A stretch of DNA of 64,000 nucleotides from Sulfurovum sp. XGS-02 (GTDB lineage Bacteria; Campylobacterota; Campylobacteria; Campylobacterales; Sulfurovaceae). The first letter of the stretch is position 1. Each line of letters starts with the position of its first letter. Position numbers and translations under genes: made by a program. Positions 1,718-54,875 of this stretch are shown here, piece after piece. The notes under the pieces are model-generated. The model ran no database searches, was not told where the DNA came from, and was given only the letters and a program-made list of their open reading frames with translations. The stretch lies in contig NZ_CP093312.1 in assembly GCF_023213175.1 (NCBI RefSeq), positions 1,302,001 through 1,366,000 on the forward strand, read 5' to 3'.

Positions 1718-2776
1718 TTGGCAAAAGTCACTATAAATAGCTATGGTTTTATTATATTGGATAGTACTATAGATGGAAAGCGGCATAGGCTTACCACTGG
1801 CAAAAAAGCAGAAAAAAGACTGCTTCAGTGGTATGAAAAGCATATTGAAGATGAATTCTTGAAACTTTACGAGCAAAAGTTCGGTGTAACAAATAGAGAA
1901 TCAACTACATTTAAAGAGTATGGAGAGTATATTTTAGAAATATCTTCAAACAATAGAAACTCATTTTCACAAAAAGAAATTATGCAACAGTTTAGAAAAT
2001 TGTGTGAAATATTCGGAGATTTATATTTGACTGACATTAAAGCAAGTCACATTTTAAAGTGGCAAAATACTTGTGGATTTGCTCCAAAGACAGTACAAAA
2101 CTATAGAGGCACGTTAAACCTTATATTAAAGATGGCTCTTTATGATGAGATTATAACAAAAAACCCTCTTACCGTCGTAAAACCTCCTAAAAAGGTTTAT
2201 AAAGAAACTTTTGTATTTTCGCAAGAAGATATGAAACTCTTAATCAGTAATAGTACTGGACAGTTTAGAAATATGTTAATGTTTAATTTCTTTGCTGGGT
2301 TAAGAGGCAGTGAATTGATTGCACTTAGATGGGATGACATTGATTTTGATGCAAATACAATCAGAATAGATACTCGTATACGTCAAGGTATTGAAGATGT
2401 CACCAAGTCAAAGAGAGTAAGGATAATAGATATGCTCCCACAGGCAAAGGCTGCACTAAAAAAGCAAATGCTGATTACTGGACTCAAAGGTAATTATGTC
2501 TTTCTCTCACAACACGGTAAGGTTTATACCACACCTAATGTACTAAGCGATCGACTGAAAGATCTATGTGTAGAATGTGGTATCAAAGCTGGCACGATGC
2601 ACACTGTAAGGAAATCATGCAATACCCTGCTCAAACAATACGGGTTGCCTCAAGATTGGATACTAGATCAATTAGGACATGTTGAAGATGGTGTAAATCG
2701 TGAATATTATACGGGTAAAATTAAACCTGATATGTCAAAAATTGGCAGAGTTTTGGCAGAGTTAAAGTTTGGTTAG
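1718..2776 (+). CDS. Tyrosine-type site-specific integrase
   Basis: The 352-residue protein has the phage-integrase layout: an N-terminal arm-binding part, a core-binding SAM-like domain (about 65-150), and a C-terminal catalytic domain. The catalytic residues are visible: Arg196 in GLRGSE, a lysine near 230-232, His295-x-x-Arg298, His321 in LGH, and the nucleophile Tyr330 or 331. The box II region reads HTVRKS rather than the common HxLRHT. Translation starts at TTG (1718) behind a good GGAAGGA site 7 bases upstream. The gene ends 30 bp from tRNA-Ser, which identifies the tRNA as the probable attachment site. The frame is intact, so the element may still be able to move. Confidence 0.9.
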   Translation: MAKVTINSYGFIILDSTIDGKRHRLTTGKKAEKRLLQWYEKHIEDEFLKLYEQKFGVTNRESTTFKEYGEYILEISSNNRNSFSQKEIMQQFRKLCEIFGDLYLTDIKASHILKWQNTCGFAPKTVQNYRGTLNLILKMALYDEIITKNPLTVVKPPKKVYKETFVFSQEDMKLLISNSTGQFRNMLMFNFFAGLRGSELIALRWDDIDFDANTIRIDTRIRQGIEDVTKSKRVRIIDMLPQAKAALKKQMLITGLKGNYVFLSQHGKVYTTPNVLSDRLKDLCVECGIKAGTMHTVRKSCNTLLKQYGLPQDWILDQLGHVEDGVNREYYTGKIKPDMSKIGRVLAELKFG

Positions 2777-2806: not shown

Positions 2807-2897
2807 TGGCGGACAGTGAGGGATTCGAACCCTCGGTACCCTTACGAATACGCATCCTTAGCAGGGATGTGGTTTCAGCCAACTCACCCAACTGTCC
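2807..2897 (-). tRNA. tRNA-Ser(GCU)
   Basis: On the minus strand a 91-nt tRNA can be folded: acceptor stem GGACAGT/ACTGTCC with discriminator G and encoded CCA, anticodon arm with loop CTGCTAA giving anticodon GCT, a long variable arm as expected for tRNA-Ser, and a T arm containing GGTTCGAATCC. It decodes AGC/AGU serine codons. Its 3' end faces the integrase gene. Confidence 0.95.
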
Positions 2898-50958: not shown

Positions 50959-51003
50959 TGTTGTTCACGTAATTTACATGACACCTATTTATTATTTAAA
51001 CCA

Positions 51004-51432
51004 TTAAAGATGCTTTTCAACCCATTTTATGATCTGTTTACTACTGCGTGCGCCGGTAAATCTATCTATCTCTTTTCCATCTTTAAACACAAGTACTGCC
51101 GGGATATTTACTATAATGATTGTTGGGTTTTGTGTTTGAGCGTTGTCATTGTTTATCTTTAAAAACTGTGCTTGTAATGGCATAGCCATAGCTGCAGCTT
51201 CAAAATGAGGTGCCATAGTCAAGCATGGACCACACCAAGGTGCCCAGAAGTCAACTATAATAGGTAGATCAGAAGCATGAACAAAGTAGTCCAATATAGC
51301 TAAATTTGCATTCAGTGGCTTACTTTCTAACAGTGAACCTCCACACTCTTTACAATGTTCAGTAGTGTATGTCTCCTTCTTTTTTACACTGCTTACTTTA
51401 AGACAATGGGGACAAACTACATTAATATGCAT
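51004..51432 (-). CDS. trxC: Thioredoxin 2 (TrxC type)
   Basis: A 142-residue cytoplasmic thioredoxin. The N-terminal zinc ribbon has two CxxC pairs (CPHC and CKEC) typical of TrxC. The thioredoxin domain has WCGPC and the cis-proline in NIPAVLVF. The linker and fold match the TrxC group, which is linked with oxidative stress. The start at 51432 follows GGAG. It is convergent with the MtfA gene. Confidence 0.9.
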   Translation of the reverse strand: MHINVVCPHCLKVSSVKKKETYTTEHCKECGGSLLESKPLNANLAILDYFVHASDLPIIVDFWAPWCGPCLTMAPHFEAAAMAMPLQAQFLKINNDNAQTQNPTIIIVNIPAVLVFKDGKEIDRFTGARSSKQIIKWVEKHL

Positions 51433-51716
51433 ATCGCGACACTCCAATTTTATTTAGTAAGTATTATATCTGGTATAGATCAGAGTTTATACCCTCTCTC
51501 ATTTGTCCTATTATGACCAAAATGTCTGAACCTAACAAAAAATGTTTTATTCTTAAAATTATAAGGAACATATATGACTGCATCAAAACAAGTCTATATA
51601 ACTATAGAAATGATCAACGACCTTACAAAATTGGTAAATTACTCGTTCATGACGGTATCCAATCAATACTATTAATGATCAACGGGTATAATAAACAAAA
51701 AGAAAGGGTTGTAATT

Positions 51717-51821
51717 ATGACTACTTTATTCATGATTATTTCAACTATTGTGATTATCTATGTCGCTGTAATGGTAGTGAGTATAATGAAACAAGGAAAG
51801 AAAAAAAAGGATGATGGTTAA
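51717..51821 (+). CDS. 34-residue membrane peptide
   Basis: A small protein with a hydrophobic helix (about residues 4-24, IISTIVIIYVAVMVVSI) and a strongly basic tail (KQGKKKKDDG). AAAGGG lies 10 bases before the ATG at 51717; a longer frame starting at 51513 is probably not used, since its first 68 residues look random. Function unknown. It could be a subunit accessory peptide or a toxin-like peptide; the sequence does not decide. Confidence 0.5.
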   Translation: MTTLFMIISTIVIIYVAVMVVSIMKQGKKKKDDG

Positions 51822-51888
51822 GAGAGTATAAGAGAATCAAACACTAGCTTATAGCGACTACTATCCAGTAGACACTTTTCGGCTTAGC

Positions 51889-51904
51889 TATCATTATCAC
51901 CTGA
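51889..51904 (+). repeat. 16-base direct repeat, copy 1
   Basis: TATCATTATCACCTGA, identical to 52155-52170 (251 bases on). Both copies lie in the gene-free flank of the rsmE-like gene. Confidence 0.7.
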
Positions 51905-52095
51905 CCACTATAGCTGTTTGAGAGGTTGGGAGCAGTTTAAACTTTCCTCAATTTCTTCAACACCATAACCATTGCCAAAGTGTCAAGCTTTCAGTACGCT
52001 AAAAGTACATTTCTCGTTTTCTCTTTTCCAATAAGCAACACTAAAACTTAGTGAAATATGCAACAAAATTTAGGAGAAAAAGAGATAATAGAAAA

Positions 52096-52124
52096 CCTTA
52101 TAAGTTTATATATTTTATAAAGTT
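52096..52124 (+). repeat. 29-base AT repeat, copy 1
   Basis: It matches 53287-53315 in the same orientation at about 25 of 29 positions, with the 15-base core TTATATATTTTATAA identical. The two copies bracket the rsmE-like gene and its gaps, 1.19 kb apart. Each is itself nearly palindromic. Confidence 0.6.
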
Positions 52125-52154
52125 TTGAAAAGAAGACAATTTAGGGGTCAATTT

Positions 52155-52170
52155 TATCATTATCACCTGA
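52155..52170 (+). repeat. 16-base direct repeat, copy 2
   Basis: TATCATTATCACCTGA, 25 bases from the stop codon of the rsmE-like gene, preceded by AGGGGTCAATTT. Confidence 0.7.
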
Positions 52171-52194
52171 ACGGTATAATTTATGCTATTACTG

Positions 52195-52944
52195 TCATAC
52201 CTTTAACCAATCACCAAGTAACACATTAACCACAGTTTCTGTTCTTAATATCCTTTGTCCTAAACTAACTGATGTACAACCTTTTTGGCAAAGTAAATCA
52301 ACTTCATATTCTATCCAACCGCCTTCAGCCCCGATACATAGTACCTTTGGCATATAATCTTTATTACTAGTCTTATGCTTTGTAACATCGAGATATGATT
52401 TCCAAGATTGTGAAGCATAAGGATGAGCAATTACTGCATTAGCTTGCTCTTTATAGCCCTTTTTATCTAGTAATAAAGTAGGAAATTCATCTTCAACAAA
52501 TGGCTTAAAACGTTTTTTAAACTCAATAACTGGCGGCACTGTATCTATGGCTTGTTGTAACCCTTCAAAAACAAACTCATCTATACGGTTTAGTAAAGGG
52601 CTTTGCCAATAACTTTTTTGAGTACGGTAACTATTTACAATAATAAGTTTATTAACACCAAGAGATGTCATATCCATAATCAATCTACGAAGCACTTTTG
52701 GACGCGGCAAAGCAAGAATAACTGTTAAATCAAGTTTAGCTGGTGGTTTTTTATCCAGTGTAACATCAGCAAGAAGTACTTCATCGTTATTGATTTGAGC
52801 AATAGTAGCTTTACCTATGTTACCACCAATCTCAGCAATAGTTAAACTATCCCCTACCCTAGATTTCAGTACCTCTTTAATATGAGTAACTTGCTTTGGA
52901 TCACTAATGATTTTGGCATTTTTAGGTAATAAAATACAGTTCAA
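52195..52944 (-). CDS. RsmE-like 16S rRNA m3U1498 methyltransferase, TTG start
   Basis: A 249-residue SPOUT-fold protein. The RsmE family marks are present: IGAEGGWIE and SLGQRILRTETVV, plus 'LALPRPKVLRRLIMDMTSLGV'. This last stretch is, by my recollection, more like a gammaproteobacterial RsmE variant than the usual campylobacterotal one. RsmE methylates U1498 of 16S rRNA in the 30S subunit. It starts at TTG directly after a stop codon, with no ribosome-binding site, so expression may be weak. It is boxed by repeats (GGGGTCA-type motifs 6-45 bases from each end) and lies in AT-rich DNA, which suggests acquisition. It may be a second copy or the only copy; the window cannot tell. Confidence 0.8.
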   Translation of the reverse strand: MNCILLPKNAKIISDPKQVTHIKEVLKSRVGDSLTIAEIGGNIGKATIAQINNDEVLLADVTLDKKPPAKLDLTVILALPRPKVLRRLIMDMTSLGVNKLIIVNSYRTQKSYWQSPLLNRIDEFVFEGLQQAIDTVPPVIEFKKRFKPFVEDEFPTLLLDKKGYKEQANAVIAHPYASQSWKSYLDVTKHKTSNKDYMPKVLCIGAEGGWIEYEVDLLCQKGCTSVSLGQRILRTETVVNVLLGDWLKV

Positions 52945-53122
52945 ATTATGAAAATAGGGGCCAGTTTATAACGATAACTCATTGCCTATTCCTCTTAATA
53001 ACCCCACAAATAGTCAGGTTGTGATATATCTAATACTTTAACAATCATATGCTGAGAATAGCCTTCTTTATCGGCTTTAAGTATCTATTTATTACGTATT
53101 TTCATGTTTTTGTATGGGTTCT

Positions 53123-53148
53123 CTCGTTACACCTTTTTAAGGTGTAAT
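53123..53148. repeat. Hairpin element sharing AGGTGTAACGAG with 33.3 kb
   Basis: CTCGTTACACCTT and AAGGTGTAAT form a 9-bp hairpin. In reverse orientation the 12-mer AGGTGTAACGAG equals 33306-33317, which also sits at the end of a CACCT/AGGTG hairpin. Confidence 0.4.
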
Positions 53149-53231
53149 ACCTACTTCTGTTAGATGCTTATCTTATTTTGTCTCTACCTAGCGGTGTAAA
53201 TGGTTTTTCGATGGATTAAACTGCCCTATGC

Positions 53232-53345
53232 ATTACGCCTCGAAGAGACGAAACGAGAAAAACATGTTTTCTAGGGTTAGGGGAATCTTTATAAAGTTAT
53301 ATATTTTATAAGGTTAGTCGCTGTAGCGACATTTTCGAGGCATAA
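53232..53345. repeat. Inverted repeat ATTACGCCTCGAA / TTCGAGGCATAAT
   Basis: 13-base arms (12 of 13 matching) at 53232-53244 and 53333-53345 enclose the second 29-base AT repeat and a 14-base perfect palindrome (53317-53330). This is the footprint expected of a small non-coding mobile element or its remnant. Confidence 0.4.
53287..53315 (+). repeat. 29-base AT repeat, copy 2
   Basis: Direct-orientation partner of 52096-52124, on the other side of the rsmE-like gene. It is followed after one base by the GTCGCT/AGCGAC palindrome. Confidence 0.6.
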
Positions 53346-53555
53346 TTTTGTCTACTTCAATAGAAAATCTTATAGCATGTTCTATATAGGAGATTTCATA
53401 ATGAAAACATAAACTCGAATGAATTTAAAAACCGGTAGTTTATTTCCCTGAATTTAATTGTCTTTATTAGAACTCACAGTTCCACCACTCTCTCAAAGAT
53501 CTCCACTGTTCATTGATGGTATGGAACGCTTCCATAATCTCAAATGAGAATATTT

Positions 53556-54875
53556 TTATTCATCCTCACTATCAATCTCTTCAGGCAATTCCAAAGCATC
53601 AATATGTCCTAAGGCTCCAGCCCCGGCAATCCCCTGCAGTGAACCATACATCTCTGTAGTATTCTGCAGAACACCATCTATCAGTTTCTGACGGCGTTTC
53701 CAGCTTGCCATGAGAGAGCGGCGCTCTTTGTCCAGCTCTTGCTGCATAGATATAAAACCGTCTACGATGGCTTTAAGCTGCATACTGAACTCATTACCCG
53801 TAAGGTAGTTGTAGAGGAGTGTCATCTTGTCACTTTTGTTCTCCTCTTTTTGTACACTCAAATGTACACGGATAAGACTCTCACGCAGAAGGGATACTGA
53901 ACCTTTAAATTCATCAAGACTGCAGACCCAGATCCCGTCAACAAAGCCCATCCTATCCATTCCGTTAGGATAGACAGATGTGACAAGAACGCCCAGGTCT
54001 GCATTGACCTTGAGCATATCCTGCTTGAGCTTAGTGACCCAGCCATCACTCCATGCTTTGGTATTTTTACTCTCATAACAGATGATCCCACAGTTTTGTA
54101 ATTCTCTGGTGTGTATGGTCTGTATACAGTCTGCACCAAAAGCACCTTTTTTGATCTCCTCTACCGTATCGAAAGGAAATTGAGTGGAGAGCCACGACTC
54201 TATAAGAAGTTCCAATGCCTCACCTTGTATCTGCATGGAACCCTGCTCGGATTTTCTTTTGGCATCTTCTATACTCTTTGCCATCTGTGCTATCTTCTCA
54301 TCTTTTGCTTTTAACTCAAGTTCATTTGCCTCTTTAGCCTCTTTAAGCGCCAACTCTTTCATTTCCATGGCCTGTTTAGCCAACTTCTCTTTTTCCAGCT
54401 TTAACTCTTCACTTAGAGCCTTTTGGGCTTCGACCTTTGCCGCCGATGCGATCTCATCTTTCTCACGTTTTAGTTTTTCTATCATGGCTTTTGAAGCATT
54501 AAGTTCTTGGACTTGCTTAGACTTCTCTTCAAGCTCTTTTTGCAGTAGTGCTACAGACTCACGCTGCTCCTCTACCAATTCTCGCTTCAGTTCATCCATA
54601 AGCTTTGTACGTTCAAGTTTGAGCTGTTCTTTGGTCGCTTTATGCAATTCTTCATCGAACTTCTCTTTCTCTTCTTTAAGTGCATCTTCTTTGACTTTGA
54701 GCATATCAAGGTGAGCTTTGTACTCTTTACGTTTGGCCTCTATTTCATTTTGGAGTTTTTTCTGATCTGCTAAATGCTGTTGCTTGAACTTCTCTTCTAT
54801 CTGATGGTAAAATATCTCATCGATATCTATTTGGGTCCCGCAGTTGGGACACTTTATACTGTTTTGGGTGGACAT
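53556..54875 (-). CDS. DUF2130 coiled-coil protein
   Basis: A 439-residue cytoplasmic protein: an N-terminal zinc-ribbon-like CPNC (residues 9-12), a long coiled coil (about 25-215, very rich in Glu/Lys), then the DUF2130 domain with a restriction-endonuclease-like core ('GEALELLIESWL', 'GADCIQTI', 'GIICYESKNTKAWSDGW'), where Asp, Glu and Lys occupy nuclease-type positions. The family is often found near restriction or defence genes, but here the neighbours are housekeeping. It ends in an acidic tail EEIDSEDE. Function unknown. Confidence 0.85.
   Translation of the reverse strand: MSTQNSIKCPNCGTQIDIDEIFYHQIEEKFKQQHLADQKKLQNEIEAKRKEYKAHLDMLKVKEDALKEEKEKFDEELHKATKEQLKLERTKLMDELKRELVEEQRESVALLQKELEEKSKQVQELNASKAMIEKLKREKDEIASAAKVEAQKALSEELKLEKEKLAKQAMEMKELALKEAKEANELELKAKDEKIAQMAKSIEDAKRKSEQGSMQIQGEALELLIESWLSTQFPFDTVEEIKKGAFGADCIQTIHTRELQNCGIICYESKNTKAWSDGWVTKLKQDMLKVNADLGVLVTSVYPNGMDRMGFVDGIWVCSLDEFKGSVSLLRESLIRVHLSVQKEENKSDKMTLLYNYLTGNEFSMQLKAIVDGFISMQQELDKERRSLMASWKRRQKLIDGVLQNTTEMYGSLQGIAGAGALGHIDALELPEEIDSEDE

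Follow-up and report, generated by a model that had tools for sequence, protein, structure and literature searches.

A repeat-bounded rsmE cassette in Sulfurovum as a probable unit of a dispersed, integron-like cassette system

Integrons are held to be the main machine with which bacteria capture gene cassettes. They comprise cassette arrays with a distinct end beside a tyrosine recombinase gene, occur also as orphan arrays, and exchange cassettes between arrays. In the pdif modules of Acinetobacter, sites of about 28 bp, each composed of two arms and a short centre, bracket genes and are served by XerC/XerD. A further comparison is offered by XerH/difH and XerT/TnPZ of Helicobacter, which share with the sites described here their phylum, the Campylobacterota, and, by our reading, the use of a single recombinase. 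XerH has 354-362 aa (PMC5357621), and the difH consensus, TGAAAAC…TTTTCAAA (PMC2731167), differs from the Sulfurovum sites.

The new analysis concerns a stretch of 64,000 nucleotides (the window; G000:C1:1302001-1366000) on a 2.19-Mb Sulfurovum-type chromosome, in which a gene cassette lies between two similar sites, termed L and R (Table 1; G numbers denote genomes, L numbers loci). Much of the original prediction, made from the sequence alone, describes this islet correctly. Specifically, RsmE is indeed its lone gene, the cassette is AT-rich (33.1% G+C versus 40.9% for the window), and the AT direct repeat is real, pairing 52093-52124 with 53284-53315 at 84% over 32 nt. Two further predicted repeats are also present. 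The first, of 24 nt and 88% identical (51889-51912 / 52155-52178), has one copy in the left flank and the other inside the cassette, and no tie between it and the sites was found. The second is an inverted repeat at 53232/53333 (TACGCCTCGAA / TTCGAGGCATA, one mismatch), which is readable in the sequence and missing from the default repeat list; its right arm lies within the R spacer, and its left arm was not seen in the G091 or G092 ortholog sequences. The GGGGTCA-type motifs that had been noted at the ends of the gene are present there, but occur within 300 bp in only 3 of the 25 other rsmE loci examined and are thus not a feature of the rsmE gene. A GGGGTCA repeat family was dropped altogether, with exact GGGGTCAGGTGA in 6 of 344 loci and one copy at up to two mismatches in the window against a mean of 2.9 expected. 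Elsewhere in the window, a 352-aa tyrosine integrase (1718-2776, plus strand) stands beside a tRNA-Ser gene (2807-2897, minus strand), indicating a likely island integrated at the tRNA.

Table 1. Features of the rsmE cassette locus (window positions) and copies of a recurrent short cassette (locus positions)
Feature	Position	Strand	Remarks
Thioredoxin-like gene, left neighbour	51004..51447	-	relative also near rsmE in L087, L012
L site, left cassette boundary	52092..52126	+	35-bp dyad AAAACCTTATAAGTTTATATATTTTATAAAGTTTT; 28-bp core 52097-52124; homology to Sulfurovum sp. AR (G091, L296) ends here
Cassette body	52127..53287		33% G+C; 53104-53287 unmatched in the Sulfurovum sp. AR copy
Cassette gene, second RsmE-type 16S rRNA m3U methyltransferase	52195..52944	-	249 aa, TTG start
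R1, core of right end	53284..53318	+	28-bp core 53288-53315
12-bp palindrome TCGCTGTAGCGA	53318..53329		conserved between R1 and R2 (R-end alignment)
R2, right end of element	53363..53407	+	second half-site pair, wider spacing; R-end alignment
DUF2130 gene, right neighbour	53556..54875	-	adjoins R in G000, G091, G092
~407-bp cassette copies	L198:6173-6607, L201:4999-5434, L206:12034-12468, L200:4429-4861, L340:5495-5927		

The repeat recurs throughout the genome and elsewhere in the genus. At up to three mismatches, its 28-bp AT core has 17 copies in the window genome against none for a reversed control (forward and reverse strands), which is far from chance, and a consensus search across the genus recovered 19 copies from the window genome and was positive for 32 of 78 genomes, with a control count of zero in all 78. 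Where the sites cluster, they show one fixed polarity, namely L, gene(s), L, gene(s), …, R. L is a 35-bp dyad (AAAACCTTATAAA-9 nt-TTTATAAGGTTTT). R is a conserved array end of about 115 bp, in which a dyad similar to L (R1) comes first and is followed by about 85-92 bp more (TTATTCGCTATAGCGACG…TTCAATAGAAAACCTTATAAAATGTTCTATATAGGAGGTTTTATAATG); some clusters, such as those at 609-610 kb and 1133 kb of the window genome, are without it. Scanning of 27 loci yielded 90 sites, of which 65 are L, 5 precede a cassette and have an R-type left half, and 20 are R ends, with one R site (L155, which has a deletion) entered by hand; the R alignment has 21 rows, including a false one (L157_9915) and L204 twice. 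Six genomes (G000, G003, G024, G056, G091 and G093) hold between 6 and 23 sites each. A similarity search of plasmid DNA with the islet matched once, to an R element on a 395-kb Sulfurovum mangrovi plasmid, where an Imm27 gene and a second ORF lie between an L and an R site; the same search of phage DNA returned no match. None of the titles in the open-licence literature searched describes these sites.

Comparison with a relative, Sulfurovum sp. AR (G091), defines the boundaries of the cassette. The left flank, including the thioredoxin gene, is shared over window 50976-52126 at 90% identity, and the right flank matches from window 53289 at 87%. Between the sites, rsmE is replaced by an unrelated 311-aa Sel1-repeat gene and no interior match is found, which bears out the predicted small cassette bounded by repeats. 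In G092, the same R adjoins the DUF2130 gene and borders a third content, the comparison covering the right side only, as the contig starts there. The rsmE cassette, in turn, is found in Sulfurovum sp. AR on another contig, in a different array and between the same bounding sites, with 95.7% identity over window 52092-53103. The two copies differ in their last 134-184 bp, so that either the move was not clean or one copy changed later.

The same pattern extends to other loci. At the YraN locus, both outer flanks are common to G000, G003 and G024, and the interiors are without match. Cassettes with a SoxY-like gene (90.7% over 896 bp) and a MOSC gene (93.8% over 849 bp) occur at different loci, as does a gene-less cassette of 407 bp. 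Chromosomal rearrangement at L sites was considered and dropped, because a shared lipoprotein-gene cassette explains the pattern. A search for empty sites found that G043 retains a decayed R2-like stretch at the YraN locus, which is therefore not a clean empty site there, and that G003 has no site at the window locus and other genes in its place. In G056, a metE-like gene (L301:692-2965) stands at the YraN locus without sites, where others have R arrays, and is perhaps a cassette stripped of its ends.

These comparisons also bear on a reading in which every L...R stretch would be a non-autonomous transposon, asymmetric at its ends, and the arrays would be nested insertions. The outer edge of R is sharp and conserved, the ends are indeed asymmetric, and arrays sit at many places, all as such an element would have it. 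However, at orthologous loci both outer ends stay and the contents change, R remains beside DUF2130 in three genomes, and cassettes are separated by L sites rather than by R, which makes the transposon reading highly improbable.

Most cassettes measure 0.4-3 kb, and arrays hold up to six of them. A set of 61 cassettes of 250-6000 bp, which leaves out an 8-kb cassette of the window genome and others, has a mean G+C of 31.2%, lower than the 38.3% of the loci in which they lie and the 40.9% of the window. The longest gene runs with the array in 26 of these and against it in 30, a mixed orientation that is unlike integrons; the remaining five have no ORF of 70 aa. When 30 selected cargo proteins were compared with Pfam, 18 passed the cut-off, one fell below it and 11 had no match; the cargo includes MetE, MscL, MntP, a Na+/H+ exchanger, glyoxalase, MOSC, rhodanese, SoxYZ, a GDSL lipase and an OLD-like ATPase. 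A promoter-like leader, GATATAC, is found after 15 of 70 cassette starts, where 0.26 would be expected, and after none of the 20 R ends. Three genomes share the cassette of about 407 bp, in which no ORF reaches 70 aa; four copies are established by alignment and a fifth is assigned by its start and size (Table 1). Its cargo may be a small RNA or a promoter.

The half-sites give an indication of where exchange occurs. All four pairings are found among the 90 sites (lc 65, rc 5, lR 2, rR 18), and the left half of the 20 R ends is R-type in 18 and L-type in 2. R1 of the window is such a hybrid, with an L-type left half (AAAGTTATATAT) and an R-type right half (TTTATAAGGTTAGTCGC). In the metE cassette, compared between G091 and G092, the cassette's own left half is kept including ACATA and (C)GTT is taken from the neighbour, which would place the exchange point inside TTTTATAA, as judged from this one informative pair. 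A longer junction form, in which an R-type left half begins 42 bp before L, was found at 0-3 mismatches at nine of the sites listed.

A candidate for the enzyme is found directly beside R. In both G091 and G092, R runs into the 5' end of a tyrosine recombinase gene of about 188 aa. Within R2 are a GGAG resembling a Shine-Dalgarno sequence and an ATG, which in G092 is the first codon of the integrase frame of about 188 aa; in the window R2, the frame reads ATG AAA ACA TAA, three codons and then a stop. In G091, the R2 codon is ATT and the frame continues through R2, so that the start is unsure there. The protein matches PF00589 with 57.2 bits (cut-off 27.1) over residues 18-188 of a 196-aa frame, which leaves no room for an N-terminal core-binding domain, and contains GARLNE, HSFR, GHSS and NYV, which we take to be the predicted catalytic R, HxxR, H/W and Y of a tyrosine recombinase. 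Among the 78 genus genomes, intact copies are found in three (one in G091, two in G092 and one, at 44% identity, in G043), versus 32 with sites, and stretches matching the first 23-36 residues, largely R2 itself, occur in G003, G089 and G092. The window genome has neither the integrase nor a relative of it, and with so few holders among the site-bearing genomes the link between enzyme and site is drawn from their adjacency. In L198, L206 and L340, the integrase lies between two facing site sets with cassettes on both sides.

Relatives of the integrase (E <=1e-12) occur in 17 of 398 genomes and 9 of 87 genera in a sample of the order. A dyad of the TTATAA type was seen upstream of 7 of 16 integrase loci scanned and not shown in the other 9, and upstream of none of ten XerC/XerD loci, one of which had a dyad with two mismatches that was not of the site type. 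In G427, the arms are AAAACACTATAA/TTATAGTGTTTT, and the motif recurs adjoining the start codon. Shuffled sequence equalled the dyad in 0-18% of trials at the seven loci with one, so the strength of this observation lies in the shared motif and its position. By eye, a dyad can also be made out at the second G092 copy, for which the scan had picked an unrelated dyad as its best, and G043 has a degenerate one. In other genera, 12 stretches of 7.7-20 kb showed no array near the integrase, the arm used for searching being a guess for several of them. Integrase searches returned six plasmid records, four of them from Arcobacteraceae (best 42.7%), none among phages, and a single 43-residue match at 36% among viral contigs.

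An attI-like R beside an integrase in G091 and G092, together with tandem cassettes, corresponds to the layout of integrons, and the arrays share with integrons their small, mostly one- or two-gene cassettes, orphan arrays without a recombinase, and cassettes exchanged between arrays. They might therefore be ordinary integron remnants, that is, CALINs (attC clusters without an integrase) moved by a true IntI. Apart from the general look of small-cassette arrays with one special end, Table 1 of PMC10295459 lists two CALINs for Sulfurovum sp. NBC37-1 (G024), which has these arrays. These CALINs may be the same arrays recovered via the attC model, in which case, as far as that table goes, the observation is partly in print under another name. 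At least 17 Sulfurovum genomes have recombinases of mostly 323-354 aa in which the PF00589 match spans about 600 bp; this span fits an IntI-type insertion and, by our own inference, possibly marks true IntI. L sites occur in 7 of the 17 genomes listed, including G049 (12) and G012 (5); IntI-like recombinases are also found in G009 and G021 among the genomes listed. On the other hand, no IntI-like hit is found in the six genomes with 6-23 sites each. GTTRRRY occurs in the right-arm zone of one of the 90 sites and in none of the other 89, which are 35-bp dyads in many scattered arrays per genome. The metE pair would map the exchange within TTTTATAA, left of C in AACGTT, as opposed to the integron G^TT. 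The R-linked integrase, at about 188 aa and without an N-terminal domain, scores 28.1 bits on the integron-integrase model TIGR02249, far below the cut-off of 265. As such, we consider integron remnants unlikely.

The sites also recall the dif and pdif modules of Acinetobacter, in which genes are bracketed by sites of about 28 bp with two arms and a short centre, and housekeeping XerC/XerD could in principle move the cassettes. The core is AT-rich and 11-6-11-like, and XerC- and XerD-like proteins are the only PF00589 families (>38% identity) common to the six site-bearing genomes compared; accordingly, the other PF00589 proteins were not linked to the sites when the eight in the window genome were considered as the enzyme. 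Large recombinases near one window-genome array are likewise not common to the six. Just upstream of one array (G000:C1:2109364-2114835) stand three consecutive tyrosine recombinases of 369, 857 and 553 aa, presumably Tn554-like in arrangement. Against the dif reading, the NBC37-1 chromosomal dif, as given in Table 2 of PMC2731167, differs from L or R by 19-22 of 28 positions unshifted and by 9 of 24 at the best shift; XerC/XerD-size recombinases are also found in site-free genomes, such as G016 and G014; and, in contrast to dif/pdif modules, the sites keep one fixed orientation and have a special R end, whose R2 is tied to a dedicated recombinase gene other than XerC/XerD. We therefore judge movement by XerC/XerD to be improbable.

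The available data are compatible with a model that we consider likely, in which the islet is one unit of a dispersed cassette system run by the recombinase of about 188 aa, and the rsmE of the window is an orphan cassette. The repeat-bounded cassette system itself is real and recurrent, with an integron-like architecture, an enzyme and site that are distinct as far as tested, and a predicted activity. Comparison shows that L dyads of 28-35 bp bound the cassettes and that arrays typically end in one R, composed of R1, the palindrome and an accessory R2. In the model, the recombinase would probably bind the CTTATAA half-sites of L, R1 and R2 and free a cassette through exchange, within the central TTTTATAA, between two L sites or between L and R. 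The excised cassette would then be reinserted at an L or R site, either in its original array or in a different one. As R2 overlies the recombinase's own start codon, binding there could result in self-repression. With the recombinase gene gone from the window genome, the rsmE cassette would be an orphan, mobile only with the enzyme provided in trans, and rsmE would have become trapped between one L and one R site, perhaps in its ancestral position. Several observations count against this model: intact integrases are confined to three of the 78 genus genomes, the R2 codon of G091 is ATT, no array was seen near the integrase in the stretches from other genera, the TTATAA dyad was not shown at 9 of 16 integrase loci, the two rsmE cassette copies differ at one end, IntI-like recombinases occur in some site-bearing genomes, and R is dispersed over seven loci of the window genome, for which the model offers no explanation. 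Whether the system constitutes an independent second kind of integron in the Campylobacterota, in which a minimal recombinase and an attI-like R capture, store and swap cassettes through dif-like double-stranded sites, in many small arrays per chromosome and on a large plasmid, and in which resident genes such as rsmE can become cassettes in place, we regard as evenly balanced.

The history of rsmE itself can be followed further. With 103.8 bits on PF04452 (cut-off 23.9) and 263.2 bits on NCBIfam NF008700 (cut-off 252), the encoded protein is, as predicted, a full-length member of the RsmE family of 16S rRNA m3U1498 methyltransferases, with rRNA as its predicted target; a second copy was indeed found, as the native rsmE lies at G000:C1:214273. 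The gene does start at TTG, though not directly after a stop codon, the nearest in-frame stop being the eighth codon upstream, and this start is ordinary for its clade (TTG in 11 of 19 Campylobacterota copies, ATG in 8). In a tree of 49 rows, the window RsmE and 18 related copies, nearly all from Sulfurovaceae, form one clade (98/98), which is sister to Psychrobacter (89/87; 47-56% identity) with Acinetobacter and Halomonas next, in agreement with the suggested gammaproteobacterial type. The clade stands apart from native campylobacterotal RsmE (about 20-24% identity, alignments of at least 72 residues); since several native rows (at least L088, L092, L099, L101, L103, L105 and L107) are truncated or misread, only the split between native and second copy is used here.

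The original description of the gene as acquired has to be amended. A recent acquisition is unsupported, since copies at 18 other loci belong to a single clade with the window gene, which makes the transfer an old one. Of the two outcomes that the original prediction named as contrary to it, one is observed: at its tips, the tree places the protein with Campylobacterota, but the locus differs between relatives. Cassette sites occur at one of the 19 related rsmE loci, that of Sulfurovum sp. AR, some loci having short flanks. Proteins encoded close to the window gene (thioredoxin, one of 308 aa and one of 107 aa) have relatives in the vicinity of rsmE in 8 of 27 rows, corresponding to 7 distinct loci, a count in which some of the relatives may be paralogs and the flanks of several rows are short. 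Most simply, these data are read as an old rsmE transfer between a Moraxellaceae-like lineage and the Sulfurovaceae, followed by capture as a cassette at or near the ancestral place. On this reading, rsmE may have become a cassette where it already stood, without being carried there; alternatively, it may have been reinserted by chance at its ancestral place, among ten or so arrays. The window RsmE probably functions as a second methyltransferase and traces back to an old Moraxellaceae-like source. In one Sulfurovum MAG (L081:3488-5482), rsmE is in two pieces about 1.3 kb apart, perhaps by an insertion in the gene.

If the proposed system is true, several consequences follow. A recombinase of 188 aa with short sites could be a handy cloning tool, and the locus offers a test of how cassettes are born, as rsmE may have been bracketed where it stood ancestrally. 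The same array logic with another enzyme and other sites would mean that the integron design arose more than once, and its cassettes would account for some of the turnover of genes between Sulfurovum species.
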